A stretch of 33,727 bases of DNA, taken from positions 1-33,727 of the IMG/VR virus record IMGVR_UViG_3300022927_000066. One strand, written 5' to 3'. The translations under genes were made by a program, and so were the position numbers. The notes below the pieces were generated by a model. It was given only the letters and a program-made list of their open reading frames with translations. It was not told the origin of the DNA and searched no databases. Shown piece by piece: positions 3,797 to 30,648 of the stretch (position 1 is its first letter; each line of letters begins with the position of its first letter). The DNA is from a virus.

Positions 3797-5806
3797 TTAC
3801 TGTTGGCGTCGACCGCCGCCACGCCGCTCTTCTACTGAACGAGGAGCGGGGACGGTACCACCGCCGGGGCCAGCAAGACCAAGAGCCCTGTTAGCCGCTT
3901 CGTTTGATTCACGTTCCCGCTGTGCTTGGTTCGCAGTAAAGGCTTGACGAGAGTTAGTAACTCGTCGGCCTTCACGTCCCTGCTCACCAGACTGTGTTGG
4001 GAACGATCCTTCAGCCTGACTGCGTCGCGCACGCTCCTTACCTACGGCTGCCTCAACGTTCTCCCTAGTCATAGGTAGTACTGGGCCCGCGATGCCTGGC
4101 TTCAACTTCTTGAACTGAGTAGCCGTCATTTCAAAAGCCTGATTGCGTGCCTCTCTGGCCCGTGCTGCCTCATCTCCGCCCTTTTGGATCTTACGAACCT
4201 CAGTGACACCGGTGGTTCCAGAGGTACCAACCTGCCCTGAGACACTAGTACCAATGAGGTCAGGACGCATCAAGTCTCTAATGGAATCGTCGGTCTGTTC
4301 TGACAACGCAGTAAGGGCAGCAATGTCCATGTCTCCTACAGGAACTCCCTGAACAGCAGCCTCATTCTTGATACGCCCAACGTCGGAGATTGTACCTCTA
4401 ACGCCCGGAATATCGATAATAGCGGACCTTGCCTCTGTCTCCCCTTCCGCAGGAGGACGGGGGGTTTCCAGACTTTGACCCGATGCGGCGGCACCGGCAA
4501 GGATACCGGCCCCTCCCATACGAAGGATTGCTTCGTCTTGTGTCTTGGGGGCTTCTACCTCTTCTCCCTCTGGCGCGCTAACTCCGGGGGTACCCGCGCC
4601 CTCTCCGGGCATCATGTACTTAGGCATAGAAATGCCACCCTTATCAGCACCGCCTGCCGCAGCGCGATAGAAACGACGCCCACCACGCTCCAGATTCTCT
4701 GGATCGCGGGGTTCAAAGCCCACACCAGATGCAGAGTCTTGAAGAGCAGCCACTGGGTCTTCGGTGAACATCTCTGCACGCTCAATTTCTGCTCTTACGG
4801 GCTCACGAACGTTTTTGATAGCGGGGGCGGCTTCTTCCATACGAGCACGGATGGCACGATGACCACCACGAGGATCTGATGCGGGTGCACGATCTGTGAG
4901 AGGACCGCTATCAACTGTGGTATCAGGCTCATTTTCCTCAGCGAACTGAATACGGCTAACCTTTCTAGTACGGAAAGGTGACGGGAGAATAGAGACAGGA
5001 GAACCACGCATAGGCGTACCAGTTGGAGCAGGCCCCCGGCTCGAACTATCTGCTGGAGGTTCTGCGTAAACAGAACGAGTTAGGCCCTCTTTCTCTAGTT
5101 CTTCAGGGGACATATCGTACTTAGACCTGCCGCTTTCGAGTACACCCGGCGCTACAGGATTTCCAGCCTCTCGCGTATACGCCCTACCATTCGGGAACTC
5201 TTCAGTAGGTTTAGCAGCCTGTTTAACAGCCTGCTGTACGACAACGTCGTCTGGTCCTACTACGTGCTCTTTGCGGGAAGAGCCTGATCCTGTGGCGATA
5301 GTCTCTGTGCGGTCAAACACCTCAACGTTTTCGGCGTTAAACTGTGACTTACTAATGTTAGTAAGCGGTAGTACTGGCCCCTGAGTACCACTTGGCAGTC
5401 TTTCAGTAGAACGAGCCAGCGTGGTTCCCGGCTTAAAACGTACGTCAGTAATAGCGCCGCCCCGAGCGGCCTTTTCCGTATTCCATTTTGGACCCATTCG
5501 ACCGGTCTTGGGGTCCATGGTTTCCCTAATGTTACCGGGGGCCAGACCCATGCGAGTAGCGATAGTCCGTGGACTCTGGTCTTCAAGACTACTCTGATAC
5601 AGTGAGTCGCTGGCTTTAGGTTTAGGTACCTTATCTAGCGCCGCTGTGACTGCCTTCTCGGTGTAGGAACCTACTGAAGAATCCCCAGATGGATTATCGG
5701 AGTCGTCTTCGTGTTCTCCAGACTCTGACGTCACTCTGGATAGGTCACTAGTCAGGCCCACACTTTCTGTTTCTGGGACGTCTAGGATGTCTTTTTCCTT
5801 GGCCAT
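3797..5806 (-). CDS. Large disordered hypothetical protein, 669 aa
   Basis: It starts at an ATG preceded by CGGAGG at five-base spacing, a strong site after a 71-base gap. The N-terminus is acidic and Ser-rich; the rest is rich in Glu, Arg, Gly, Pro and Ala with few hydrophobic clusters, so most of it is probably disordered. The motif GPVLPxT occurs twice, once in the first third and once near the C-terminus (GPVLPMTRENVEAAV). Clusters of positive charge occur near the end (SVEERRGGGRRQQ). There is no signal peptide or membrane helix. It heads the left-end block of unrecognised genes. A structural, internal-virion or scaffold protein is conceivable, but no family evidence supports that. Confidence 0.85.
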   Translation of the reverse strand: MAKEKDILDVPETESVGLTSDLSRVTSESGEHEDDSDNPSGDSSVGSYTEKAVTAALDKVPKPKASDSLYQSSLEDQSPRTIATRMGLAPGNIRETMDPKTGRMGPKWNTEKAARGGAITDVRFKPGTTLARSTERLPSGTQGPVLPLTNISKSQFNAENVEVFDRTETIATGSGSSRKEHVVGPDDVVVQQAVKQAAKPTEEFPNGRAYTREAGNPVAPGVLESGRSKYDMSPEELEKEGLTRSVYAEPPADSSSRGPAPTGTPMRGSPVSILPSPFRTRKVSRIQFAEENEPDTTVDSGPLTDRAPASDPRGGHRAIRARMEEAAPAIKNVREPVRAEIERAEMFTEDPVAALQDSASGVGFEPRDPENLERGGRRFYRAAAGGADKGGISMPKYMMPGEGAGTPGVSAPEGEEVEAPKTQDEAILRMGGAGILAGAAASGQSLETPRPPAEGETEARSAIIDIPGVRGTISDVGRIKNEAAVQGVPVGDMDIAALTALSEQTDDSIRDLMRPDLIGTSVSGQVGTSGTTGVTEVRKIQKGGDEAARAREARNQAFEMTATQFKKLKPGIAGPVLPMTRENVEAAVGKERARRSQAEGSFPTQSGEQGREGRRVTNSRQAFTANQAQRERESNEAANRALGLAGPGGGTVPAPRSVEERRGGGRRQQ

Positions 5807-6192: not shown

Positions 6193-6198
6193 ATTATA
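6193..6198 (-). promoter_or_regulatory. Possible -10 element before spoVS
   Basis: TATAAT on the minus strand overlaps the stop codon of the resolvase-like gene and lies about 40 bases before the spoVS start. No good -35 is seen at 16-18 bases, so the element may be fortuitous or need an activator. The hairpin listed at 6163-6189 falls immediately downstream. Confidence 0.28.
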
Positions 6199-6562
6199 CG
6201 TATCCGGCTTCCTTGAGGAGGCTAGTTATGTCCTCTAAACGTATTATTGCGTAAGTCTCACCAAGTGACTTTTCGCCCACTCCGGGGCGTTTTACTACCA
6301 GAATTGGGAGAGCGTTCCCCCCGACTTCCTCCTGCTGTGCCTGCGATACAGCATCATTGAGCCAGCCTGAGAGGTCGAACTTGCGCTGGTTCTTGCACTG
6401 AATGATTGCTTGGCGACGAGGGCTAGCAATGCCGTTGATGTCACCGCTGTCATACTTACCAGACAAACTAGGCCGAAAAGCCTTCTTAAAACTACGAGAT
6501 CGTAAATACCTGACGATAAGCGTCTCAAACGATGTGCCTTTAGCCTTGTTCTTGTTACCCAT
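6194..6562 (-). CDS. Holliday-junction-resolvase-like nuclease (Hjc-like PD-(D/E)XK)
   Basis: The protein has 122 residues. The N-terminus KNKAKGTSFETLIVRYLR supplies the conserved Glu13 of the Hjc-like fold. KYDSGDINGI gives Asp41 and AIIQCKNQRKFDLSGWLNDA gives the QxK form (Gln55, Lys57) of the ExK motif. Hjc-type enzymes cut four-way DNA junctions and would help resolve recombination or replication intermediates before packaging. It is the last recognisable gene of the replication and recombination block. The Gln in place of Glu is seen in some phage members. A different PD-(D/E)XK specificity cannot be excluded. Confidence 0.8.
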   Translation of the reverse strand: MGNKNKAKGTSFETLIVRYLRSRSFKKAFRPSLSGKYDSGDINGIASPRRQAIIQCKNQRKFDLSGWLNDAVSQAQQEEVGGNALPILVVKRPGVGEKSLGETYAIIRLEDITSLLKEAGYV

Positions 6563-6591: not shown

Positions 6592-7509
6592 CTAGGGGGC
6601 GCACTCTCCACGACCCGTGTCCAAGTACAAACCTGTGGTGGTCACGAACGCCCATGAATACCACCCTTCATACAAGTCGATAACCAGTATCCCAGCAGAC
6701 TCATCGTAGACAAACTCGGAGTCACTCTGACCTACAGATCGCAGACTCTTACCACCTGTCCCCACGACAAAGTGCGTGATACCGTCAACCGTAGCCCTTT
6801 CATAGTGGTGGTCATGGCCTGATAGGGCGATGGCACCCTCCGGTAGCAGGTCTACAAACGGAGCAACACCAGAGTAGTTACCGTGTACACCGGATGAGTA
6901 CCGGGGGCGATGCCAGTACGCAATAACACAATCAGTAGCATCTTCCAACTTGTTTCCCAAAAACTCTGTCTGGTCGTCAGTTACTACCTCAGAATCTAAT
7001 GCGATTAGGCTCCACATACCCATATCAAAGGCGTAGTAAAACTTAGACAGACCAAAATACTTCGCATAGCCCGCCGCAAGCCCGGTGTAGTACTCGTGGT
7101 TACCCGGCACCGGGTAGGTGATGTGCTTCAACTTACCCCAACTAAGGTCATACATACCCATAAAGGCGTCGTATGAGCCGTTCTCGTACTGAAGGTCTCC
7201 CAGTGCCAGCACAGCATCGGGGTTTACTAACTCTGCTAGTAGGGCAGTATCTTCGTGAACGCACATTGCCGTAGAACTGCTGGAGCAAACCATGTCTCCT
7301 ACAGCGACGATACGCCTGCGCCATACCTCAGGGATGGTGGTAGTGCTTGTAGTAGACGCAACTGTGGTAGTGGTAGTGGTCGTAGATACAGCAGTGGTCG
7401 TAGGGGCAACGGTAGTCGTAGTAGTGCTGACGACTTCAGCAGGAGTAGTTACGTCAGTCGTGCATGATGCCAGTAGCACCGGCAGTATTAGCCACTTCCG
7501 CTTGACCAT
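6592..7509 (-). CDS. Exported lipoprotein metallophosphoesterase, purple-acid-phosphatase-like
   Basis: The N-terminus MVKRKWLILPVLLASC is a lipoprotein signal with lipobox LASC and lipidated Cys16. A Thr-rich spacer follows (about 22-59), then a calcineurin-like phosphoesterase domain. Metal ligands are visible: Asp72 in VGDMV, Asp105 in GDLQY, GNHE (137-138), His200 in YWHRPR, and GHDHHYER (His232, His234). The product should sit on the outer face of the host membrane and release phosphate from organic phosphate, or cut another phosphoester. The ATG at 7509 is chosen over a GTG at 7515. It overlaps the preceding small gene, so it is co-transcribed with replication genes. The substrate is unknown; nutrient scavenging or surface modification are both plausible. 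Confidence 0.88.
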   Translation of the reverse strand: MVKRKWLILPVLLASCTTDVTTPAEVVSTTTTTVAPTTTAVSTTTTTTTVASTTSTTTIPEVWRRRIVAVGDMVCSSSSTAMCVHEDTALLAELVNPDAVLALGDLQYENGSYDAFMGMYDLSWGKLKHITYPVPGNHEYYTGLAAGYAKYFGLSKFYYAFDMGMWSLIALDSEVVTDDQTEFLGNKLEDATDCVIAYWHRPRYSSGVHGNYSGVAPFVDLLPEGAIALSGHDHHYERATVDGITHFVVGTGGKSLRSVGQSDSEFVYDESAGILVIDLYEGWYSWAFVTTTGLYLDTGRGECAP

Positions 7510-7682
7510 TCCCACTCATCTCCAGCAGGGTAAATGTTCTCGGGTCGCCCTTTGACGTACACCAACTTACTATCCCCCAGCATCAACTGGTGCTGTACAC
7601 CATCGACTATCCACGGGTAGTTGATGTCTTTGGTACCAGTACGGAACTCGGTACCAATCTCGGGGGCGCTACCGATTGCCAT
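7488..7682 (-). CDS. Small hypothetical protein, 64 aa
   Basis: It starts at an ATG at 7682 inside the end of the previous gene and ends in a TAA inside the start of the phosphatase gene. The product contains INYPWIVDGVQHQLMLGDSKLV and a Trp/Ser/Gly tail (EWEWSSGSG). No cysteine pairs, signal peptide or membrane helix are visible. The beta-rich look suggests a small folded domain, but it is not recognised. Confidence 0.7.
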   Translation of the reverse strand: MAIGSAPEIGTEFRTGTKDINYPWIVDGVQHQLMLGDSKLVYVKGRPENIYPAGDEWEWSSGSG

Positions 7683-8063: not shown

Positions 8064-8293
8064 CTCTGCCTCCACCTACTAGGTGCGTGGTTATTTTCTA
8101 CTGAGAACTTATGTTCATCGCTGTCGTAGCGTCGGAAGATCCACTGGCAGGGGTCGCTACCGTCCTCCCAACCCTCTTCTTCTTCTTCAGAAATAGGAAT
8201 GCCGTCATGGGTAGCGCATACGAGTGGGCCAATCCAGCCCCTCTGCTGTCCGTAACGTACCCACTCTTCATAATCAACGTGATAGGTCATCAT
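8060..8293 (-). CDS. Small hypothetical protein, 77 aa (phage THDG/SEEEE type)
   Basis: The ATG at 8293 overlaps the exonuclease stop as ATGA. The pattern CATHDGIPISEEEEEGWEDG, followed by SDPCQWIFRRYD, resembles a small protein type that recurs in actinobacterial phages and has no known function. That resemblance is from memory, not a search. It has two Cys, is acidic, and has no membrane segment. Its position next to the Cas4-like exonuclease is the only functional hint. Confidence 0.75.
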   Translation of the reverse strand: MMTYHVDYEEWVRYGQQRGWIGPLVCATHDGIPISEEEEEGWEDGSDPCQWIFRRYDSDEHKFSVENNHAPSRWRQS

Positions 8294-9174
8294 TTCTTAC
8301 TCCAACAATGGCTCTTATAACTACAGAATTTACACATGCTGCAACTCTTGTGTGTTGCTACCACCGGCTTGGGCGGTACTACATTGGTCTCTAGGTACCC
8401 CTTGACATCCTTAATACCTTCAAGGATTGGCTCAATGAGTTCAGGAGTGTACTTAAGGTGGAACTCCTTGACCTCCTGTGAGGGCTTCCACTCGTACAAA
8501 ATGATGGCGTCTTCAATACCTAGACACATCATGTATAGGTTTACCTGACGACGGTGAGTAGTGAGAGGGCGCTTGATACGTTTCCATAGATCATCTAGGC
8601 TCAGGTCCCCGTTCTCGTAACCCTCATACAACTTAGGAGCATCCCAACGGATAGTACCCAGTCCTACAGACTTGATCTCCACAACAGCCTGACCCTTAGT
8701 GTCTTCCCAGACGCCGTCAGCGTGACCGATAATGCTGTACTCCTCACTACTCAAAGGTACTTCTTTGTACTTCAAGTCGGCAGAACCGCAGTGGTCGCAC
8801 CCCTCAGGAGAGGTACCAGCAAACTTGGCGTCACAAGAGTTGCACTGCCAGTTACCAAATAGACCTCCGGCTTTCCACATCCACCTCTGCCACTTGTCGT
8901 GGATGTTGTGGCCCTCAGCAAAGATGTTCATACGCCTAAGGTTCATAGACTGGGGATCACTCTCCTCAGTGTCCATGATCTTGTACCACGTTGAACGTGG
9001 GCACCAGTCGTCCTTGGCCATCTCGCTGGAGTGGAAGTGTTTGGTATCTCTATGGGAGTTGCGTTCAGCCTGCTCTATAGCGAGAGCCGCCTCTATCTTA
9101 GATAGGAGGCGATTAGTGGGCTTTGCCGTGAACTGCTCCTTGTAGTTCTTCATATACCACGGCTGTTCAGTCAT
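8290..9174 (-). CDS. Cas4/AddB-like Fe-S PD-(D/E)XK exonuclease with inserted zinc ribbon
   Basis: The 294-residue product has His92, IIGHADGVW (Asp153), VVEIKS (Glu167, Lys169) and a RRQVNLYMM motif, the active-site set of Cas4/RecB-type nucleases. Cys58 in DDWCPR plus Cys281, Cys284 and Cys290 in the C-terminal CKFCSYKSHC match the Fe-S cluster spacing of Cas4. Between them, CNSCDAK and CDHCGS (Cys111, 114, 126, 129) form an extra zinc ribbon. These enzymes resect DNA ends and feed a recombinase. The ATG at 9174 overlaps the previous gene by eight bases. Nearby RecA and two resolvase-like nucleases suggest a recombination module. There is no CRISPR context. Confidence 0.88.
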   Translation of the reverse strand: MTEQPWYMKNYKEQFTAKPTNRLLSKIEAALAIEQAERNSHRDTKHFHSSEMAKDDWCPRSTWYKIMDTEESDPQSMNLRRMNIFAEGHNIHDKWQRWMWKAGGLFGNWQCNSCDAKFAGTSPEGCDHCGSADLKYKEVPLSSEEYSIIGHADGVWEDTKGQAVVEIKSVGLGTIRWDAPKLYEGYENGDLSLDDLWKRIKRPLTTHRRQVNLYMMCLGIEDAIILYEWKPSQEVKEFHLKYTPELIEPILEGIKDVKGYLETNVVPPKPVVATHKSCSMCKFCSYKSHCWSKK

Positions 9175-9478
9175 CAATCATCTCCAGAAAATCGTCTTCG
9201 GTTAATACTACGTAGCGGTGACCCGCCAAGTCAATCTGCATCAGAGGGATACGCCCCTCCAACCTAGCCCTCTTAACTAAGTCGCGCATGTCAACGGACT
9301 TGATGCTGTAAGACTTAGCATCTGGGTCCATCTTGAGTTTGTTCTCAATCATGAACTCTTCTGTGCGCACGTCAGCCTTGCGTACCCACCCAGCACCAGA
9401 CATAGCGTTACGGCTACCTCTGTAAGCCTTGGCAGTACGCTCCTCTTGGCGTTTCGACTTCTTACCCGAGTCACTCAT
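9167..9478 (-). CDS. Small PD-(D/E)XK nuclease-like protein, 103 aa
   Basis: After a basic N-terminus come SGAGWVRKADVRTEEFMIEN and KLKMDPDAKSYSIK, giving Asp in KADV and the ENK version of ExK. A helix (DLVKRARLEGRIP) and a beta strand (LMQIDLAGHRYVVL) follow, as in compact phage Holliday-junction resolvases. It probably processes branched DNA with the neighbouring exonuclease and RecA. It overlaps genes on both sides. The family call rests on motif order only. It is distinct in sequence from the Hjc-like protein at 6194-6562. Confidence 0.68.
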   Translation of the reverse strand: MSDSGKKSKRQEERTAKAYRGSRNAMSGAGWVRKADVRTEEFMIENKLKMDPDAKSYSIKSVDMRDLVKRARLEGRIPLMQIDLAGHRYVVLTEDDFLEMIDD

Positions 9479-9729
9479 TGGTCAAACAGTACGTCAGCAA
9501 TTTCCTCAATAGTGTCGCTCTGCAATTCAATACGCTCTTCGACAACGTCAATCTTGTTAAGTATGACCTTAAGCAAGTCCTTAATCATACCGAGTTCGTG
9601 GGCGTACTGCTTGAGTTCGTCCCTCTTCTTAGGCATATCGTCGTACGGGTAACGACTAGGGTGGTATGCCCTACCGGAGTAGTCTTTAGGGTCGAACAAT
9701 CGCCCTTGCTGTGGCATGTTCTCACTCAT
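9475..9729 (-). CDS. Hypothetical coiled-coil protein, 84 aa
   Basis: The ATG at 9729 has GGGAG nine bases upstream and overlaps the recA stop by eight bases. A longer frame starting inside recA is rejected. The N-terminal part is Tyr/Pro/Arg-rich (DYSGRAYHPSRYPYDDMP). The C-terminal half is a likely coiled coil (IKDLLKVILNKIDVVEERIE, then LQSDTIEEIADVLFD). Function unknown; placement suggests a recombination accessory protein. Confidence 0.75.
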   Translation of the reverse strand: MSENMPQQGRLFDPKDYSGRAYHPSRYPYDDMPKKRDELKQYAHELGMIKDLLKVILNKIDVVEERIELQSDTIEEIADVLFDQ

Positions 9730-10777
9730 CAGATACTGCTCCCTCTGGTTCAACGCCTTCTCCCAAGACTGCTGAGACTGCTGCTTCTTTGAGGCGTTTC
9801 TGGAGCCCCAGATCCTGTCGAACCATGTCATAGAGTTCTTCCTTCTTGCTGGCTATTCGTTCTCCCTCAAACTTATAACGTCCCTCAAACAATTCCAGAG
9901 CGAGGGCAACGTTGACGATATCTTTGGCAACATCAAAGTCACCCTTTCGATAACCGCCTGAGTTTGCAAAGTAGAAGTCAGCCACAGCAACCTGCTGGGG
10001 GCGGTAGGTCTTGTTCTTCATGACACGCATCTTGATGCTCTGTCCGACACGGGTGTCCAACTTGGAACCCTCAGCAATCCACTCGTCACGACGTACCTCA
10101 ACACGGGTGAAGTAATAATAGTTCTTTGCCTTACCACCGGGAGTTGTGCGAGGATCGCCGTACATGACACCAATCTTGTCACGCCACTGGTTGATGGCGA
10201 TGAGGGTACATGACCTCTCCTCCTCAGTCAACGAACGGCGCTGAGCCTTAGCGCACTTCTTGAAGAACCGGCTGAGGATCTGAGCACCAGTAGCGACGCT
10301 GGACTCATCCATAGCCTTGTTGACCTCAGTCTCTGTGACTAGGGCGGGCAGAGAGTCGATTACGACACAATCAACAGCCCTGTTCTCTACGGCCTTGAGT
10401 ACGAGTTCCAGAGCGGACTCCATCTCGTTAGTCTCAACCACCCAAAGCCGTTCAAGGTCTACCCCAAACGAAGCGGCATACTCAGGAACATACTCTTCTG
10501 CGGCTACCCACAGTGCCAGCCACTCTGGGTCTTTGGCCTGATTAGCGGCAATGGTCTTGTAAGCAATAGCAGTCTTACCTGACGACTCCTCACCCACAAT
10601 CTCATTCCACTGATTAGCGGCCCAACCCCCACCAAGAGCGAGGTCAAAAGCCAGTAGCCCAGTGGACGTATGAGGTACTTCTACCTTTGCGTCGCTACCC
10701 CTGATGAGTAGATCTTCTCCGTACTTCTTGTTGATTTCGGCTGCTAGTTCTTCAATTATTGACAGTTTGTCGTTCAC
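9722..10777 (-). CDS. recA: RecA/UvsX-type recombinase
   Basis: The product has 351 residues, about RecA length. Walker A is GEESSGKT at 62-69, Walker B is CVVIDS near 138-142, and the L2-type region includes INQWRDKIGVMYGDPRTTPG. It forms filaments on single-stranded DNA and drives strand exchange, supporting repair and recombination-dependent replication. The start is a GTG at 10777 with AAGGA seven bases upstream. The C-terminus is acidic (EGVEPEGAVSDE), typical of RecA. Its neighbours include a Cas4-like exonuclease, two resolvase-like nucleases, a polymerase and an SSB. Confidence 0.95.
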   Translation of the reverse strand: MNDKLSIIEELAAEINKKYGEDLLIRGSDAKVEVPHTSTGLLAFDLALGGGWAANQWNEIVGEESSGKTAIAYKTIAANQAKDPEWLALWVAAEEYVPEYAASFGVDLERLWVVETNEMESALELVLKAVENRAVDCVVIDSLPALVTETEVNKAMDESSVATGAQILSRFFKKCAKAQRRSLTEEERSCTLIAINQWRDKIGVMYGDPRTTPGGKAKNYYYFTRVEVRRDEWIAEGSKLDTRVGQSIKMRVMKNKTYRPQQVAVADFYFANSGGYRKGDFDVAKDIVNVALALELFEGRYKFEGERIASKKEELYDMVRQDLGLQKRLKEAAVSAVLGEGVEPEGAVSDE

Positions 10778-11681: not shown

Positions 11682-13775
11682 TCAGCCTTTCGCCTCTGCC
11701 CATGAACCTGCGAAATGGGCTTCTACTTCTAGTTCTACTCCCATAATCGATGTACCGTTTCCCATGGCAGTCTCAATAATGGGTACCCAGTTGTTAACCT
11801 CATCAGTAGGAACCGATGTTACCAGTTCGTCGTGTACCTGTACCAGCAGTTTACACTTGGGGTACTCCAATGCTGAAGACACTTTCAACATCGCTTCTTT
11901 GCATATCTCAGATGCAGTACCCTGAACTATGGCGTTAATTGCCTGACGCTCAGCCCTAGCACGTTCTGCGAAGTCAGTGGATGACAGACCCGGAACTCTG
12001 CGCCGTCTACCATTAAGCGTCTCAACGTAACCTACTTTGGTGGCTTTGGTTATAACTTTGTTCTTCCAGTCTGTAAGACCGGCGTAGCCCTTGTTGTAGT
12101 TATCTACGACAACACGAGCCTCATCAAGAGATAACTGACCACCGGTAGAATCAACGAGACGCTTAGGACCACCACCATATCCCATGAGAAAGTTTGGCGT
12201 TTTCCCATAAATGTTGCGCTCCTCGCTAGTGATTTCCTCTGGGGGTTTGCCTAGAATAACACTGGCAGTACCAGCGTGTACGTCAATGTTCTCCTGAAAG
12301 ATGTGTAATAGTGCGGGGTCCCGACTGTACATAGCCATGATTCTCATCTCAATCTGACTGTAGTCAGCCACTATAAGACTGTTCCCCGGCTCCGCTACAA
12401 ACAAGCCACGCACACGCCCATCTCTAGGTATGTTCTGGAGGTTGGGGTCGCTTGCAGAAAGCCTTCCAGTAGCGGTACGGTGAAGGTGAAACTGAGGGTG
12501 CAATCTACCACTATGAAGCAGAGGGAGTAACCCCTCTACGTACGTGGACTTCATCTTCTTGAGTTCTGAATACTTCATCAGTAAGTCAATTACAGGATGC
12601 TGCCCCTGCAATGACTTAAGTGAATCCTCGTCAACACTGGGCTTACCCTTAGCAGTAGTCTTCTTGGGCTTAAGCCCGAGACCCCCCTCACGCTTCTTGT
12701 TGAAGAGAAGTTCTGCCTTGTGGACGTTACTGTCTGGGCTAAAGCCTATGGGAGCGTACTGTGATATCTCAGCCAACGTATTGTTAATATCAAGGTCTAG
12801 AGACTTACCAAGTTTGACAAGTTCCCTTTTGTTAACTTGGATGCCATTCATCTCCATCTGAGCCAGTACGCCCAGAGTATCCATGTCCAAGAACGTGGCC
12901 GGAATAAGTGACTCGTTGTTCTGTATGTACCTGTACAGACGCTTGTACGCCAGCCAAGCCCACCTCACGTCGTAGTGTACGTACCTTGCCGCCTTACTGA
13001 ACGGCTCTGTGGTGATCGTCTTGCCGATCTTCCCATCACGATGGTAGGGGTCGAACTTGAATACACGATCAAGGATTGACGTAAGGCGGTAACTCGTCAA
13101 GTTCTCATCAACGATGTGCATGAGTACCTGAGTATCGATGTACCTACCTTTAGGCAACTGTCCACCGTAGTACTTCGCTACCGACTTACAATCGAACTTT
13201 ATATTCTGATTGACCTTGACGATGTTGGGGTCCATGAACAGAGGTTCAAGGGCAGTAAACACCTGCTCTTGAGTCAACTGCTCTGGGGGCTCGGTGAAGG
13301 TAGCAGGGATGAAGTACTTAGCCTTAGCCATGCTCTCCTTACCGCTGGCCAACACCGCACGGTATCCCTCTGGTGGAACGGTCGTACCGTCTCCACGCTC
13401 CTCAGGAACCAAGACCTCACCGTTGGGGTGACCCATGGGGATAGCCCATGACCTACCTGATACGGCTATACCAATCCAGAACACGTCATTACGAAGAGTG
13501 TCAAGTGCTACGTTGCCGCGCCACTTATCCTCAATGGCCTGACGTGACCGCTGGACAACTGTCGGATGCGTGCTCTTGAGTGATGTGGACTTCTCTTTCC
13601 ACTCCGCCTCTACGATGTCCATGACTTCGCTGTGTCGGTGAATGTTTCCACGTGTCTCAACGTCAAAGCAGAAGATACCCTCTTCCTTGACGGCATCGAC
13701 AATTGTCGATAATTCGTCTAGAGACAGAACGACGGGGGCATAGTACCCCCGTCGCTCCGTTGTGAGATTGTCCAT
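11682..13775 (-). CDS. polA: Family A DNA polymerase with 3'-5' exonuclease
   Basis: The product is 697 residues from the ATG at 13775, five bases after the SSB stop; an upstream in-frame start lies inside SSB and is rejected. The exonuclease motifs are complete: FCFDVET (Asp38, Glu40), NQNIKFD (Asp195) and YVHYD (Tyr265/Asp269). Polymerase motif A is DYSQIEMR (Asp471), motif B is ERNIYGKTPNFLMGYG (Lys525, Phe529, Tyr533) and motif C is VQVHDELV (His648, Asp649, Glu650). No 5'-3' nuclease domain is present, as in other phage replicative enzymes. Motif B has the Arg five residues before the Lys rather than four. It copies the phage genome with the DnaB-like helicase and primase. Confidence 0.96.
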   Translation of the reverse strand: MDNLTTERRGYYAPVVLSLDELSTIVDAVKEEGIFCFDVETRGNIHRHSEVMDIVEAEWKEKSTSLKSTHPTVVQRSRQAIEDKWRGNVALDTLRNDVFWIGIAVSGRSWAIPMGHPNGEVLVPEERGDGTTVPPEGYRAVLASGKESMAKAKYFIPATFTEPPEQLTQEQVFTALEPLFMDPNIVKVNQNIKFDCKSVAKYYGGQLPKGRYIDTQVLMHIVDENLTSYRLTSILDRVFKFDPYHRDGKIGKTITTEPFSKAARYVHYDVRWAWLAYKRLYRYIQNNESLIPATFLDMDTLGVLAQMEMNGIQVNKRELVKLGKSLDLDINNTLAEISQYAPIGFSPDSNVHKAELLFNKKREGGLGLKPKKTTAKGKPSVDEDSLKSLQGQHPVIDLLMKYSELKKMKSTYVEGLLPLLHSGRLHPQFHLHRTATGRLSASDPNLQNIPRDGRVRGLFVAEPGNSLIVADYSQIEMRIMAMYSRDPALLHIFQENIDVHAGTASVILGKPPEEITSEERNIYGKTPNFLMGYGGGPKRLVDSTGGQLSLDEARVVVDNYNKGYAGLTDWKNKVITKATKVGYVETLNGRRRRVPGLSSTDFAERARAERQAINAIVQGTASEICKEAMLKVSSALEYPKCKLLVQVHDELVTSVPTDEVNNWVPIIETAMGNGTSIMGVELEVEAHFAGSWAEAKG

Positions 13776-13779
13776 GGAC

Positions 13780-14460
13780 TCAGTTGTAGTCCATTTCCTC
13801 AGTGGCGATGTCCACGAGAGTCTTACGGTTAGGGATAGGTACGATACTTTCATCGTAAGCCTGACCATTGATTGACTCAAGTTCGGAATCAGTCAGAGGA
13901 GTAATGTTCCACTCCTCATCCAGATCACGATCACGTACCATCTGGTGGTTGGTCTGTGAGGTCGGACCCTTACCACTGCGGGAGATTGCCCAGTAGTGCT
14001 TGGGGAGTGGGCCCTGACGTGGGTCCTGATGGAAGTTCTTAAGGGAGTCGATGACCCGTGGGCCGACCTCGTAAGAACGCACAACAGTCTCACCATCTTC
14101 GCTCATTAGAGCGACGTTGAACGCAAAGCGAGCGCTAGGACGATGCCCAGCATCACACAGCGGACAACCCTGAGGGTGAATGTCGGCAAGGCACGTAAAG
14201 GACTTCTGTCCCTGACGCTCTACCCAGTGCTGTCGATAGGAGGTGTACGGCTCATCCTCAAGGAACTTGACGATGACAGGCTTTTCTTCAATCTTCAGAC
14301 GCTGTGCGTAGGGGCTGTCAGCCTGCTTCGTGGTATCCACGTTGCCCCACCCACGACGAATGACCCTGCGGGCATTCGTGCGGTCCAAGTCGTCGTCGGC
14401 TGGTGCCGAGGTGACGACGTCATCAATGTCGGTGTCGTTATCTGTGTCGAAACGTCCCAT
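13780..14460 (-). CDS. Zinc-binding single-stranded-DNA-binding protein (gp32-like)
   Basis: The 226-residue product has an acidic N-terminus, a beta-rich core (KPVIVKFLEDEPYTSYRQHW) and a zinc motif CLADIHPQGCPLC (Cys90, His95, Cys99, Cys102). This arrangement is typical of phage proteins annotated as ssDNA-binding and resembles the zinc-stabilised core of T4 gp32. The tail is acidic (ATEEMDYN), as expected for binding replication partners. It directly precedes the polymerase gene. The name rests on motif pattern and neighbours, not on a full alignment. Confidence 0.82.
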   Translation of the reverse strand: MGRFDTDNDTDIDDVVTSAPADDDLDRTNARRVIRRGWGNVDTTKQADSPYAQRLKIEEKPVIVKFLEDEPYTSYRQHWVERQGQKSFTCLADIHPQGCPLCDAGHRPSARFAFNVALMSEDGETVVRSYEVGPRVIDSLKNFHQDPRQGPLPKHYWAISRSGKGPTSQTNHQMVRDRDLDEEWNITPLTDSELESINGQAYDESIVPIPNRKTLVDIATEEMDYN

Positions 14461-27454: not shown

Positions 27455-27620
27455 CTGAGCCACCCCAGATGGCAAAGCCGATCATGTGAGCCACAATGGA
27501 TGCGCCGCTGATCCACAGGGCGTATTTCAGGACATCTCCTGAGAGCGTAATTAGTACTAAAGCCGTACCGGATACCGTCCATACGAGGGCATATCCCTCT
27601 TTGAATAGTTTCTTAAACAT
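27444..27620 (-). CDS. Small membrane protein, 58 aa
   Basis: A short frame from ATG 27620, whose TGATG overlap joins it to the exported FN3-like gene. The product MFKKLFKEGYALVWTVSGTA, then LVLITLSGDVLKYALWISGA, has a basic start, two hydrophobic segments and an acidic end (GGSDEE), giving a holin-like topology. It overlaps the next gene by 11 bases. It might be a third lysis-membrane protein or an antiholin. No family recognised. Confidence 0.75.
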   Translation of the reverse strand: MFKKLFKEGYALVWTVSGTALVLITLSGDVLKYALWISGASIVAHMIGFAIWGGSDEE

Positions 27621-29182
27621 CAGCGTCTCCTTCTGCCGCCTCCTGCGGGGGCGGCGGCGACTGCCGACATGGAGGCTGTTACAGCGACAACAGTTCTTCT
27701 GGTCCCTACATCAATCTTTGAGCCAGTGGGGACGTACGTATCAAACGATCCCTCAAACACGTTTACTTCGCTCTCAAATTCCTCTTTAACCTCGTCTGGA
27801 GCCTCGGATATAGCCGCACTGACGGCCTCTAGAGTCCCCTCATCAAGGCTGTCGAAGTCCTCATTGTCGATCACTTGGTGAAGTACTTCTACAGTTATTT
27901 CGTCTTCGTCACTCAACAACTCGCCCATTGACTCGGCAAGTTCTTCGTTCTGTATACGAGTAATAATAGCCGCCACAGCAGGAGCGGGGGCTGGTTTAGG
28001 GGGTTCAGTCGTAGTTGTGGTGCTTGTTGACGAGGTGGTTGTCGTTGACGGCACCGTCGTGGAAGTGGTCGAAGTAGAAGTCGTCGTAGAAGTCGTCGTC
28101 TGGGGGGCTGTCGTAGTCGTGGTTGTTGACGTAGTCGATGGCGGCGGCGGTGGAAGCGTTGTCGTCGTCGTGGTTGTAGTGCTTGTTGAACTCGTCGTAG
28201 AAGTTGTCGAAGAGGTCGTCGGGGGCACCGTTGTTGTTGAACTTGTGGTGGTTGTAGTCGGAGGCACCGTCGTCGTGGTGGTAGCGACGGTGGTCGTCGT
28301 CGTAGAGGAGGGGACAGGTTGAACCACCGGTACAGGAACCGAGGTGGTGGTTGTCGTGGTAGAAGTTGTAGATGTTTCCCATATCGTAGTTGTGGTGGTA
28401 GTCGGCGGCGGTGTGGGTACTGATACTAGCAGTTCTACTTGCGTAGACCAGCCTGAATACAGGCTCAAAGTGTCGTTATCTGACCGTACGTCAAATACGT
28501 ACGTGCTGTCCAGACCGCCAGTATTCTCAAAGATACTGAAGGGTAGAGTGTACTCAGTATTTAGGGCTGTCTCGTCACCTACATTCCCCGTTGCTACGCC
28601 CCAACCGCCTCCGGGTGGTATGCGGAAGGATATGGCATACCTTTCAGGTTCGACGTTACCTGTGTTGGGGGCGTCCCAATCTAGGTAAACACCGTCTTCA
28701 GTCACCTCTCCGGTCAGGTTCATGGGAGGACCGATACTTTGGGGGACAGTGGTGGTGGTGGTGGTGGTCGATGCAGACGACAGGCCGAACTCGGTGATTA
28801 GTTCGTACTCACCATTGCCCCATTCCGGGGTGTTACCCAGTCCTAACTGGGTACAGCAGTACCCTGCGCGCAACTTGTAGTCACCAGCATCCAGCGTCGT
28901 GTAGATCTTCGACGAGACGCACTGGTCATTCGAGTTGTGATTTCCGTCGTCATCCGCGACGATGAGCGTGTCGCTGTCGTCATACAGCCACAGATATGGG
29001 TCAGCCATAACAGTCTCGCAGTTTGCGTTACTGTTACCATAGATAGTGACAAGGGTCGTCTCTTCTAGGGTGAAATACCAGTCAGATTCTTCGGTGACGG
29101 TGTAATTAGTGGCGCTCGTAACTCCCCCGTACAACAGAGAAAATACCCATATAAATAAAGGTAAAAAGGATATCTTACGCAT
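27620..29182 (-). CDS. Exported Thr-rich protein with FN3-like domain and basic C-terminal tail
   Basis: Residues 1-24 are a signal peptide (MRKISFLPLFIWVFSLLYGG). A beta-rich Cys-containing domain (25-135) includes TVMADPYLWLYDDSDTLIVAD, then a Thr run. A fibronectin-III-like domain follows (about 150-250: PPMNLTGEVTEDGVYLDWDA). A long Thr/Ser/Pro-rich stalk covers about 258-395. The C-terminal part is acidic and helical, then hydrophobic (TVVAVTASMSAVAAAPA) and ends GGGRRRR. That end resembles a sorting or anchoring tail: short hydrophobic stretch plus Arg cluster. The start codon lies in a perfect hairpin. It is likely displayed on the host or virion surface; role unknown. Confidence 0.85.
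   Translation of the reverse strand: MRKISFLPLFIWVFSLLYGGVTSATNYTVTEESDWYFTLEETTLVTIYGNSNANCETVMADPYLWLYDDSDTLIVADDDGNHNSNDQCVSSKIYTTLDAGDYKLRAGYCCTQLGLGNTPEWGNGEYELITEFGLSSASTTTTTTTVPQSIGPPMNLTGEVTEDGVYLDWDAPNTGNVEPERYAISFRIPPGGGWGVATGNVGDETALNTEYTLPFSIFENTGGLDSTYVFDVRSDNDTLSLYSGWSTQVELLVSVPTPPPTTTTTTIWETSTTSTTTTTTSVPVPVVQPVPSSTTTTTVATTTTTVPPTTTTTSSTTTVPPTTSSTTSTTSSTSTTTTTTTTLPPPPPSTTSTTTTTTAPQTTTSTTTSTSTTSTTVPSTTTTSSTSTTTTTEPPKPAPAPAVAAIITRIQNEELAESMGELLSDEDEITVEVLHQVIDNEDFDSLDEGTLEAVSAAISEAPDEVKEEFESEVNVFEGSFDTYVPTGSKIDVGTRRTVVAVTASMSAVAAAPAGGGRRRR
28005..28412 (-). repeat. Thr/Ser/Pro low-complexity stalk coding region
   Basis: A stretch coding mainly Thr with Ser, Pro and Val. Codons ACT, ACC, ACA and ACG are mixed, so this is not a simple nucleotide microsatellite but selection for a flexible, possibly glycosylated stalk. 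It creates long valine-rich false frames on the plus strand. Confidence 0.8.
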
Positions 29183-29202: not shown

Positions 29203-29844
29203 CTACCTCAATTCTCTAGGCGTAGAGCAGTAATAATTGCCGTAATTCCAAGGTCCTACGCCACATTCTGCCCACATCACAGCACACGACTCAGCGTTGT
29301 ACGCAAAGTCATCTGCAAAGGCGAAGCGGTCGTAGTCCTCTAGCAACTTGCCTTCATCAAACCAGCCAGACAGGTTGTTCTGCTGACACAGACCCCAAGA
29401 GTCATCACGGGTACGGGTGTTACCGTTATGTGCTGACGAATCACAGAGTGACTCACGGCTGATGATACGTAGCAGGTCCTTCACCGAGTCATCGCTGGCA
29501 CCACGATCCCACATGGCTCTGGCAATGATGTTGGCCTTGGCCTGAGAACAACCACTTCCTTCTCCATATACTTCTGGAATAGAGCCAGTCCATACCGGAA
29601 GCGGTACGGCAGTGGTAGTGGTAGTGGTAGTGGATAAGTAGTAAGGGGTTGGCTCAGGTCCCCCCTCGTAATGTGGCTCTACGGTTGTCGTGGTCGTAGT
29701 GGGCGCTTGCGAGGTGGTGGGTGCTGCCGCTTCCACACGGGGGCTTTCGGTTGCTGGGGTTGGTCCTGTGCTTGCTGCATCTACTACAGCAGATACTACT
29801 ATAGAAGTAGCGGCTAATAGGGCCAGAAACGTGAGACGACGCAT
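29203..29844 (-). CDS. Exported lytic-transglycosylase-like protein with Thr-rich linker
   Basis: Residues 1-24 are a signal peptide. A Thr/Pro/Ser-rich linker covers about 42-82. The C-terminal catalytic-like domain contains LLRIISRESLCDSSAHNGN (Glu131) and SWGLCQQN (150-156), matching the ESxxxxxA and GLxQxN signature of SLT-type muramidases. Four or more Cys suggest disulfides outside the cell. It would cut glycan strands outside the membrane, either in exit or in superinfection control. RBS is AAGGAGG at about eight bases. It is separate from the cytosolic endolysin, so the phage has two wall enzymes on opposite sides of the membrane. Confidence 0.85.
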   Translation of the reverse strand: MRRLTFLALLAATSIVVSAVVDAASTGPTPATESPRVEAAAPTTSQAPTTTTTTVEPHYEGGPEPTPYYLSTTTTTTTAVPLPVWTGSIPEVYGEGSGCSQAKANIIARAMWDRGASDDSVKDLLRIISRESLCDSSAHNGNTRTRDDSWGLCQQNNLSGWFDEGKLLEDYDRFAFADDFAYNAESCAVMWAECGVGPWNYGNYYCSTPRELR

Positions 29845-29881: not shown

Positions 29882-29912
29882 AGTATACCACAATGTTACG
29901 ATTGTGTGTCAG
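29882..29912 (-). promoter_or_regulatory. Candidate promoter for the exported-protein/lysis block
   Basis: Minus strand reads CTGACA (29907-29912), a 19-base spacer, then TATACT (29882-29887) preceded by TGG. The spacer contains the perfect inverted repeat CACAAT-CGTAAC-ATTGTG. The layout is the same as at 22.0 kb, including the 19-base spacer and the inverted repeat. The -35 box overlaps the end of the oxygenase gene. The downstream gene is the transglycosylase-like one. Confidence 0.42.
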
Positions 29913-30648
29913 AAACCTCTGGAACCTCTGGAACATCTACATCCGGTAATACTGCGCCTGTATCTACGATCTCAGAAGTAGGTGCTTCGTCGGTGTAAGT
30001 AGTGTCCACAGTAGGAGGGGGTGACGTGACAAACGTACTGATAATACACTTGTCGCTAGACCTAGGTACTAGGCCGCCGTGTAAGTGAACGAAGGTTGCA
30101 GGAAACGTCACGATACGGCCAACTCTTGCTTCGCAAGTGAAGTCGAAGTAATCAAAGTAAGTACCCCCACCTTCTTCCACGGTGTTCAGGTACATAACGG
30201 AAGCAAGAACTCGCTCAGCCCCTCCGGGTCCCGTGAATGGGGCACCATCGATGTGAGACTTATAAAAGCCCTCATTCTGCGTATACCTCTGGTACTGATA
30301 ACCCGTGTCCTCGCGTATGTGCCACTCGTTCGTTAAAGGGGCATACTGTGAGATGTATTCAGCGAGAGCGACTTTGTACAACTGGTAGATAGCGCCGTCT
30401 GCTTGATTCAGGAACTCATACTCTTCTTGGTTTTGGATGTACTCGTTTGCACCCGTAATGTGTGCATCCATAGAGTGCTTGGTGTTAGGTAGAACACCGC
30501 CAAACGTCTTCCCCGGATGGTTGAAATGGGGGCGATCTTCAAAGAACTTGATGATGCTCTTGCACAACTTTTGGGGAAGTACGTTGTCGTGAATGCAGAT
30601 ACCGGACCCCTTGCCGAGGGGCCATTCCATTTTAGCCTTCTTAGGCAT
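29896..30648 (-). CDS. 2-oxoglutarate/Fe(II) oxygenase, prolyl-4-hydroxylase-like
   Basis: The 250-residue product has the HxD...H facial triad: YKSHIDGAP (His132, Asp134) and HLHGGLVPRSSDK (His190), with Lys200 ten residues after the distal His for 2-oxoglutarate, the same spacing as in prolyl 4-hydroxylases. It should hydroxylate a protein or small molecule using oxygen. The C-terminal tail is Pro/Val/Asp-rich and probably disordered. GGAGG lies seven bases before the ATG. It is next to the spike/fibre operon; in marine phages such genes often lie near fibres, so a fibre or Pro-rich protein is a possible target. Confidence 0.9.
   Translation of the reverse strand: MPKKAKMEWPLGKGSGICIHDNVLPQKLCKSIIKFFEDRPHFNHPGKTFGGVLPNTKHSMDAHITGANEYIQNQEEYEFLNQADGAIYQLYKVALAEYISQYAPLTNEWHIREDTGYQYQRYTQNEGFYKSHIDGAPFTGPGGAERVLASVMYLNTVEEGGGTYFDYFDFTCEARVGRIVTFPATFVHLHGGLVPRSSDKCIISTFVTSPPPTVDTTYTDEAPTSEIVDTGAVLPDVDVPEVPEVSDTQS

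Follow-up and report, generated by a model that had tools for sequence, protein, structure and literature searches.

A phage gene predicted to encode a surface lipoprotein with a purple acid phosphatase-type active site and its relatives in probable actinophages

Purple acid phosphatases (PAPs) combine an Fe(III)-M(II) centre, a purple colour and acid phosphatase activity, and their sequences are described by five blocks worded GDxG / GDxxY / GNH(D/E) / VxxH / GHxH. Most phosphatase genes reported so far from phages belong to alkaline phosphatase types, PhoD among them. A study of soil described 17 kinds of phage phosphorus-acquisition genes and demonstrated the activity of a phage alkaline phosphatase, which sets a precedent for a role in phosphorus acquisition; it mentions no purple acid phosphatase (PMC10987575). 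In the open-licence literature we found neither phage purple acid phosphatases nor a lipid-anchored PAP in actinophages.

Here we describe such a candidate in a virus record from IMG/VR (IMGVR_UViG_3300022927_000066, positions 1 to 33,727), the whole 33,727-nucleotide stretch analysed being called the window. A preliminary description of this DNA had proposed a phage-encoded, exported lipoprotein phosphatase. The prediction agrees with the lipobox, the Metallophos domain and the phage replication and tail genes of the record, and our analysis of the sequence confirms that the gene is predicted to code for a lipoprotein with a phosphatase domain, which we now assign to the PAP type (Table 1).

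Table 1. Features of the phosphatase gene, its product and its neighbours in the window
Feature	Position	Strand	Basis or remark
CDS, predicted surface purple acid phosphatase-like lipoprotein, 305 aa	6592..7509	-	ATG start at 7509
Stop codon of the PAP-like CDS	6592-6594	-	
Predicted lipoprotein signal peptide MVKRKWLILPVLLAS	7465..7509	-	sequence, rule test, shuffles
Cys16, predicted lipidation site, lipobox LASC	7462..7464	-	
Thr-rich spacer, residues 17-64	7318..7461	-	24/48 Thr; low pLDDT in models
Purple acid phosphatase-like catalytic domain, residues 65-305	6595..7317	-	profile, structure models
Metal ligand D72 (GDMV)	7294..7296	-	alignment
Metal ligands D105 and Y108 (GDLQY)	7186..7197	-	GDNFY in the pig PAP alignment
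Metal ligand N137 and active-site H138 (GNHE)	7096..7101	-	alignment
Metal ligand H200 (WHRPRYSSG)	6910..6912	-	alignment
Active-site-like H209 (SGVHG)	6883..6885	-	IAEHG in the pig PAP alignment
Metal ligands H232 and H234 (GHDHH)	6808..6816	-	alignment
Downstream gene, RusA-like / PDDEXK nuclease	6194..6562	-	domain matches
Upstream gene, 64 aa, no assigned function	7488..7682	-	22-nt overlap with phosphatase gene start
Cas4-domain exonuclease	8290..9177	-	domain matches; few small genes upstream of PAP-like gene
UvsX-like recombinase	9722..10777	-	context
Family A DNA polymerase	11682..13880	-	domain matches

The window protein matches Pfam Metallophos (PF00149) at E=4e-12, far beyond the cut-off, and gave no match at E 0.01 in a single-sequence search of the PDB. 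A profile built from five viral homologues retrieved mammalian PAPs first (E ~1e-15) and then plant PAPs, before other families. Structure models led to the same class: all eight best Foldseek matches of an AlphaFold model made from five sequences (pLDDT 73.5) are PAPs, and a model made from 41 viral and cellular sequences (pLDDT 85.9, with values >90 across most of the domain) has human, pig and rat PAP as its best structural matches. Against human PAP, this second model aligns 243 of the 245 residues spanned (Z 30.6, 2.2 A), with lower scores for plant PAPs (Z ~25-26), GpdQ (23.2), Rv0805 (22) and PhoD (20.4). Among the types named in the preliminary description for structural comparison, the PAP fold stands and the PhoD and UshA types do not. 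There is no PhoD Pfam match, Metallophos being the only family to pass the cut-off, and a UshA-type 5'-nucleotidase was rejected since the protein ends after the metallophosphoesterase (MPE) domain and has no C-terminal 5'-nucleotidase domain.

All seven PAP metal ligands (D72, D105, Y108, N137, H200, H232 and H234) are present in the window protein. The four motifs first listed as a full calcineurin-type set (GDMV, GDLQY, GNHE and GHDHH) are indeed there; that list omitted the H200 motif, and the generic calcineurin/MPE identity is replaced by PAP on the grounds of structure and ligand pattern. In particular, the usual MPE 'DxH' histidine is missing and the Tyr of GDLQY takes its place, which is the purple acid phosphatase pattern. 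Across the 41 viral and cellular homologues D105, N137, H138, H200, H232 and H234 are invariant, the position of D72 is Asp in every homologue that covers the column, and that of Y108 is Tyr in 39. Compared with the five-block wording, the metal-binding letters are present, with block 1 reading GDMV (not GDxG) and block 4 AYWH (not VxxH).

The N-terminus of the protein, MVKRKWLILPVLLASC, matches the pattern of a lipoprotein signal. We used a PROSITE-type rule of a positively charged N-terminus, a hydrophobic stretch and a lipobox Cys at 15-35. When the six-frame ORFs of the window that reach 50 aa (168 in all) are put to this rule, only two pass, the PAP-like ORF and a frame overlapping a helicase gene, and shuffled N-termini pass it in 0.3-0.7% of cases. 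Each distinct viral protein of the lipoprotein group described below, six with the window's, has a lipobox, whose Cys is invariant in alignment A1. The LASC lipobox with Cys16 and the Thr-rich spacer, both reported at the outset, are therefore upheld. From the models and the signal, it is very probable that the window protein is a lipoprotein of the cell surface and that its PAP-type active site is intact.

Runs of at least five Thr occur in only three ORFs of the window. Besides the PAP-like ORF these are 27620-29182 and 29203-29844, which have signal-like N-termini and long Thr runs, lie near the endolysin gene and have no Pfam or PHROG matches.

The sequence GGAG (7520-7523) lies 10 nt ahead of the ATG of the PAP-like gene, and the overlap with the 64-aa gene upstream makes co-transcription of the two likely. 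Farther upstream are genes for the UvsX-like recombinase, DNA polymerase A, an SSB-like protein, a helicase, a primase and DnaB. Replication genes thus surround the PAP gene as had been claimed, but its placement in an early operon gains no support: every plausible gene of the record, tail genes too, is on one strand, and promoter-like sites in the window are not above their frequency in shuffled sequence. Terminator-like sites number 6 (2.5 expected), none of them decisive. The idea of PHO-box-like motifs was not borne out, with 2 such repeats found in the window and 3.8 expected for a Streptomyces-type motif; Pho-regulon control of the gene was rejected because these sites are no commoner than chance. 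No nucleotide-making gene was recognised adjoining the window's PAP-like gene. A search of the window for terminase family phrog_2 gave no match, which suggests that the record lacks the head genes.

Elsewhere in the window, a minus-strand open frame of >620 residues (1-1869) that is rich in Pro, Ala, Gly and Ser and carries VPGRP-like repeats runs off the end of the record, and a 2OG-Fe(II) oxygenase is encoded near the tail genes (29896-30648). Some members of a gene run in another record, L114 (1033-12351), resemble this oxygenase.

We scanned IMG/VR five times for PAP-like relatives of the window protein. The lipobox-Thr-MPE layout recurs in 12 further records, where a lipobox and a Thr/Ser-rich spacer precede a PAP domain, and these represent five distinct protein types (L011/L012; L013/L014/L020; L016/L017/L006; L018; L140/L141/L142) with 53 to ~33% identity to the window protein. 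The five types all pass the lipoprotein rule, and ligands and lipobox are kept in 12/12 records, so that the loss of metal ligands in close homologues, named in the preliminary description as evidence against its reading, did not occur. Its statement that such genes are rare among phages also agrees with our searches, since 50,697 phage records gave no match to the window protein or to two of its relatives.

Four more records (L015, L019, L021 and L132) encode more distant PAP-like proteins without the lipobox-spacer layout. Three of these proteins are 680-775 aa long (L015 4438-6525, L019 2933-4978, L021 4555-6882) with the PAP-like domain on the C-terminal side; in L015 a GH99-like glycosidase domain precedes it, and a terminase is encoded in the records of L019 and L021. 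The PAP gene of L132 (4007-4861) has a signal-like N-terminus with no lipobox and is located between SU10-type portal and capsid genes. Support for the phage nature of the PAP-carrying records comes from the terminase of L119, the major head protein and ribonucleotide reductase of L116 and the portal and capsid of L132.

The neighbours of the PAP gene in these phages may point to a link with nucleotide and DNA synthesis. For example, dCMP deaminase is encoded 11 nt upstream of the PAP gene in L116, with ribonucleotide reductase ~5 kb on, and one small gene away in L114; the PAP gene is near ThyX (thymidylate synthase) in L117 and in L119/L018 immediately follows a DNA methyltransferase gene, with a Cas4-like exonuclease nearby. 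Nonetheless, nucleotide-making genes are common in phages generally, which tempers this reading. In one phage type the neighbour is of another kind: L140 has two adjacent lipoprotein genes, a phosphodiester glycosidase (NAGPA, PF09992; 3131-3928) and then the PAP (3995-4918).

Several observations bear on the hosts. The whiB gene is restricted to actinobacteria and serves as a host marker (PMC6802176). Of the nine lipoprotein-group records of >20 kb, seven carry whiB (G007, G009, G010, G011, G411, G412, G413), the search having covered all but the 24-kb L013; G006 (23 kb), which closely matches part of G007, is without it, as is the window record, a fragment with no recognised head genes. The DNA polymerase and baseplate protein of the window are nearest to BRock-type Streptomyces phages (~30% identity). 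Cellular homologues were confirmed at 490 places in GTDB genomes, and the best 80 of the 490 are mostly from Actinomycetota. Within the class of an Acidimicrobiales MAG, 30 of 395 genomes carry a homologue at E <1e-30, at no more than 49% identity, and no cellular sequence was found above ~49% identity over the matched part. Based on whiB, the Streptomyces-phage-like polymerase and baseplate and the Actinomycetota homologues, the hosts of the lipoprotein-group phages are probably actinobacterial; for the window virus itself, whose record is a fragment without whiB, the host is inferred.

In several of the cellular homologues, too, a signal and a low-complexity spacer come before the PAP-like domain. 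The frequency of homologues in Actinomycetota, some of them built in this way, marks this as an old host-derived gene. A tree of 41 viral and cellular PAP domains, in which many branches are weak, places the window protein and L011 in one clade (100/99) and the remaining four viral lipoprotein types in a second (100/100); imposing one shared ancestor on all six viral lipoproteins gives p-AU 0.33, which neither rejects nor establishes it. Viral PAPs outside the lipoprotein group branch elsewhere, which suggests that phages acquired PAP-like genes more than once. Codon differences in two close pairs (8 synonymous and 2 non-synonymous; 5 and 0; total 13 vs 2) show that the protein is under purifying selection.

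We slightly favour, as the reading of this locus, a phage auxiliary metabolic gene encoding a surface-tethered purple acid phosphatase, and give an even chance to the more specific proposal that the lipoprotein scavenges phosphate or nucleotides for the phage. During infection the host Sec machinery would export the protein; Cys16 would be lipidated, anchoring it to the outside of the cytoplasmic membrane in the probably actinobacterial host, and the Thr-rich spacer would keep the catalytic domain extended into the wall. There a two-metal centre, which by analogy with PAPs would pair Fe(III) with a divalent metal, would release phosphate from phosphomonoesters outside the cell, for instance nucleotides or sugar phosphates, and host transporters would import the phosphate (possibly also nucleosides), which would be limiting for phage DNA synthesis. 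A metabolic role is favoured by the nucleotide and DNA genes beside the PAP gene in other phages and by the replication genes in the window. The recurrence of the layout in several unrelated actinobacterial viruses likewise argues for a tool that probably feeds phosphate (or one that alters the surface). The chance-level PHO-box-like sites count against phosphate scavenging, as does the fact that a search of the PAP-carrying records for PstS and PhoH found neither.

The main alternative is that the enzyme remodels the surface, removing phosphate from host wall polymers, glycolipids or phosphoglycans and thereby blocking the adsorption of other phages or the trapping of progeny on debris. A membrane anchor and a long spacer suit a wall substrate, the NAGPA and PAP lipoproteins of three records could attack phosphodiester-linked sugars of the surface one after the other, and there are phages whose surface lipoproteins exclude other phages, as with Ltp (PMC3952083). 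However, the NAGPA-PAP pairing (genes ~66 nt apart, with NAGPA upstream, in L140-L142) is limited to one phage type and 3 of 16 records, is missing from the window, and would also fit scavenging from surface phosphodiester sugars. Ltp-like exclusion lipoproteins belong to temperate phages, whereas no integrase was matched in the window and 15 other records (fragments); together with the widely conserved catalytic residues, this makes a metabolic enzyme likelier than an exclusion protein of lysogens, as far as fragmentary records go. A complete catalytic set and common cellular homologues also favour a general phosphatase, and we regard surface remodelling as unlikely. A broader and slightly more doubtful idea is that lytic actinophages carry a small set of surface-lipoprotein ecto-enzymes (PAP, joined in some phages by a phosphodiester glycosidase). 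During infection these would act on the exterior of the cell and remove phosphate-linked groups from the host surface or surroundings, which would be a phage programme new to the literature.

Nucleotide salvage, in which an ecto-nucleotidase would supply nucleosides rather than phosphate to adjacent nucleotide-making genes, draws on the dCMP deaminase, ribonucleotide reductase and thymidylate synthase genes of the other phages. We consider it improbable, as the window gene has no such neighbour adjoining it, the C-terminal domain of 5'-nucleotidases is lacking, and PAPs are broad phosphomonoesterases. Finally, a passenger host gene with no part in infection could have been captured easily given the common homologues in Actinomycetota, but this is very hard to reconcile with the identity ceiling of cellular sequences, the several distinct viral lineages, the ligands intact everywhere and the dominance of synonymous changes between close copies.

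Genes for phosphorus acquisition are an established kind in phages, and a lipid-anchored PAP in actinophages, as predicted here from sequence, would be a new combination. With its recurrence across actinophage lineages, phage phosphorus acquisition would gain a further class of enzyme. If true, phages place enzymes on the exterior of infected cells, a point of relevance to actinobacterial phosphorus cycling; the claim of a surface PAP concerns a single gene and is easily testable.

Compared with known systems, the window protein resembles Ltp of Streptococcus thermophilus phage TP-J34 (PMC3952083) as a phage-encoded lipoprotein of the host surface; by its description Ltp is set apart, being borne by a temperate phage, whereas the window protein has a full phosphatase site and Metallophos as its only Pfam match. 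With the PhoD auxiliary genes of phages (PMC10987575) it shares a phage-encoded phosphatase and a presumed role in phosphorus acquisition, and it differs in family. Secreted or lipoprotein metallophosphoesterases of Actinomycetota (L025, L028, L103, L105) are ~40-46% identical to it and some share the whole signal-spacer-PAP layout, the difference being that they are cellular; in Streptomyces relatives, unlike the window protein, the PAP-like domain is fused behind other domains. The mammalian-type PAPs (TRAP/ACP5 and uteroferrin; PDB 2bq8, 1ute) have the same whole-domain fold, the seven metal ligands and the GNH and xxHG histidines, while the window protein, at ~21% identity to them, adds a predicted bacterial lipoprotein anchor and a Thr-rich spacer and is encoded by a phage.
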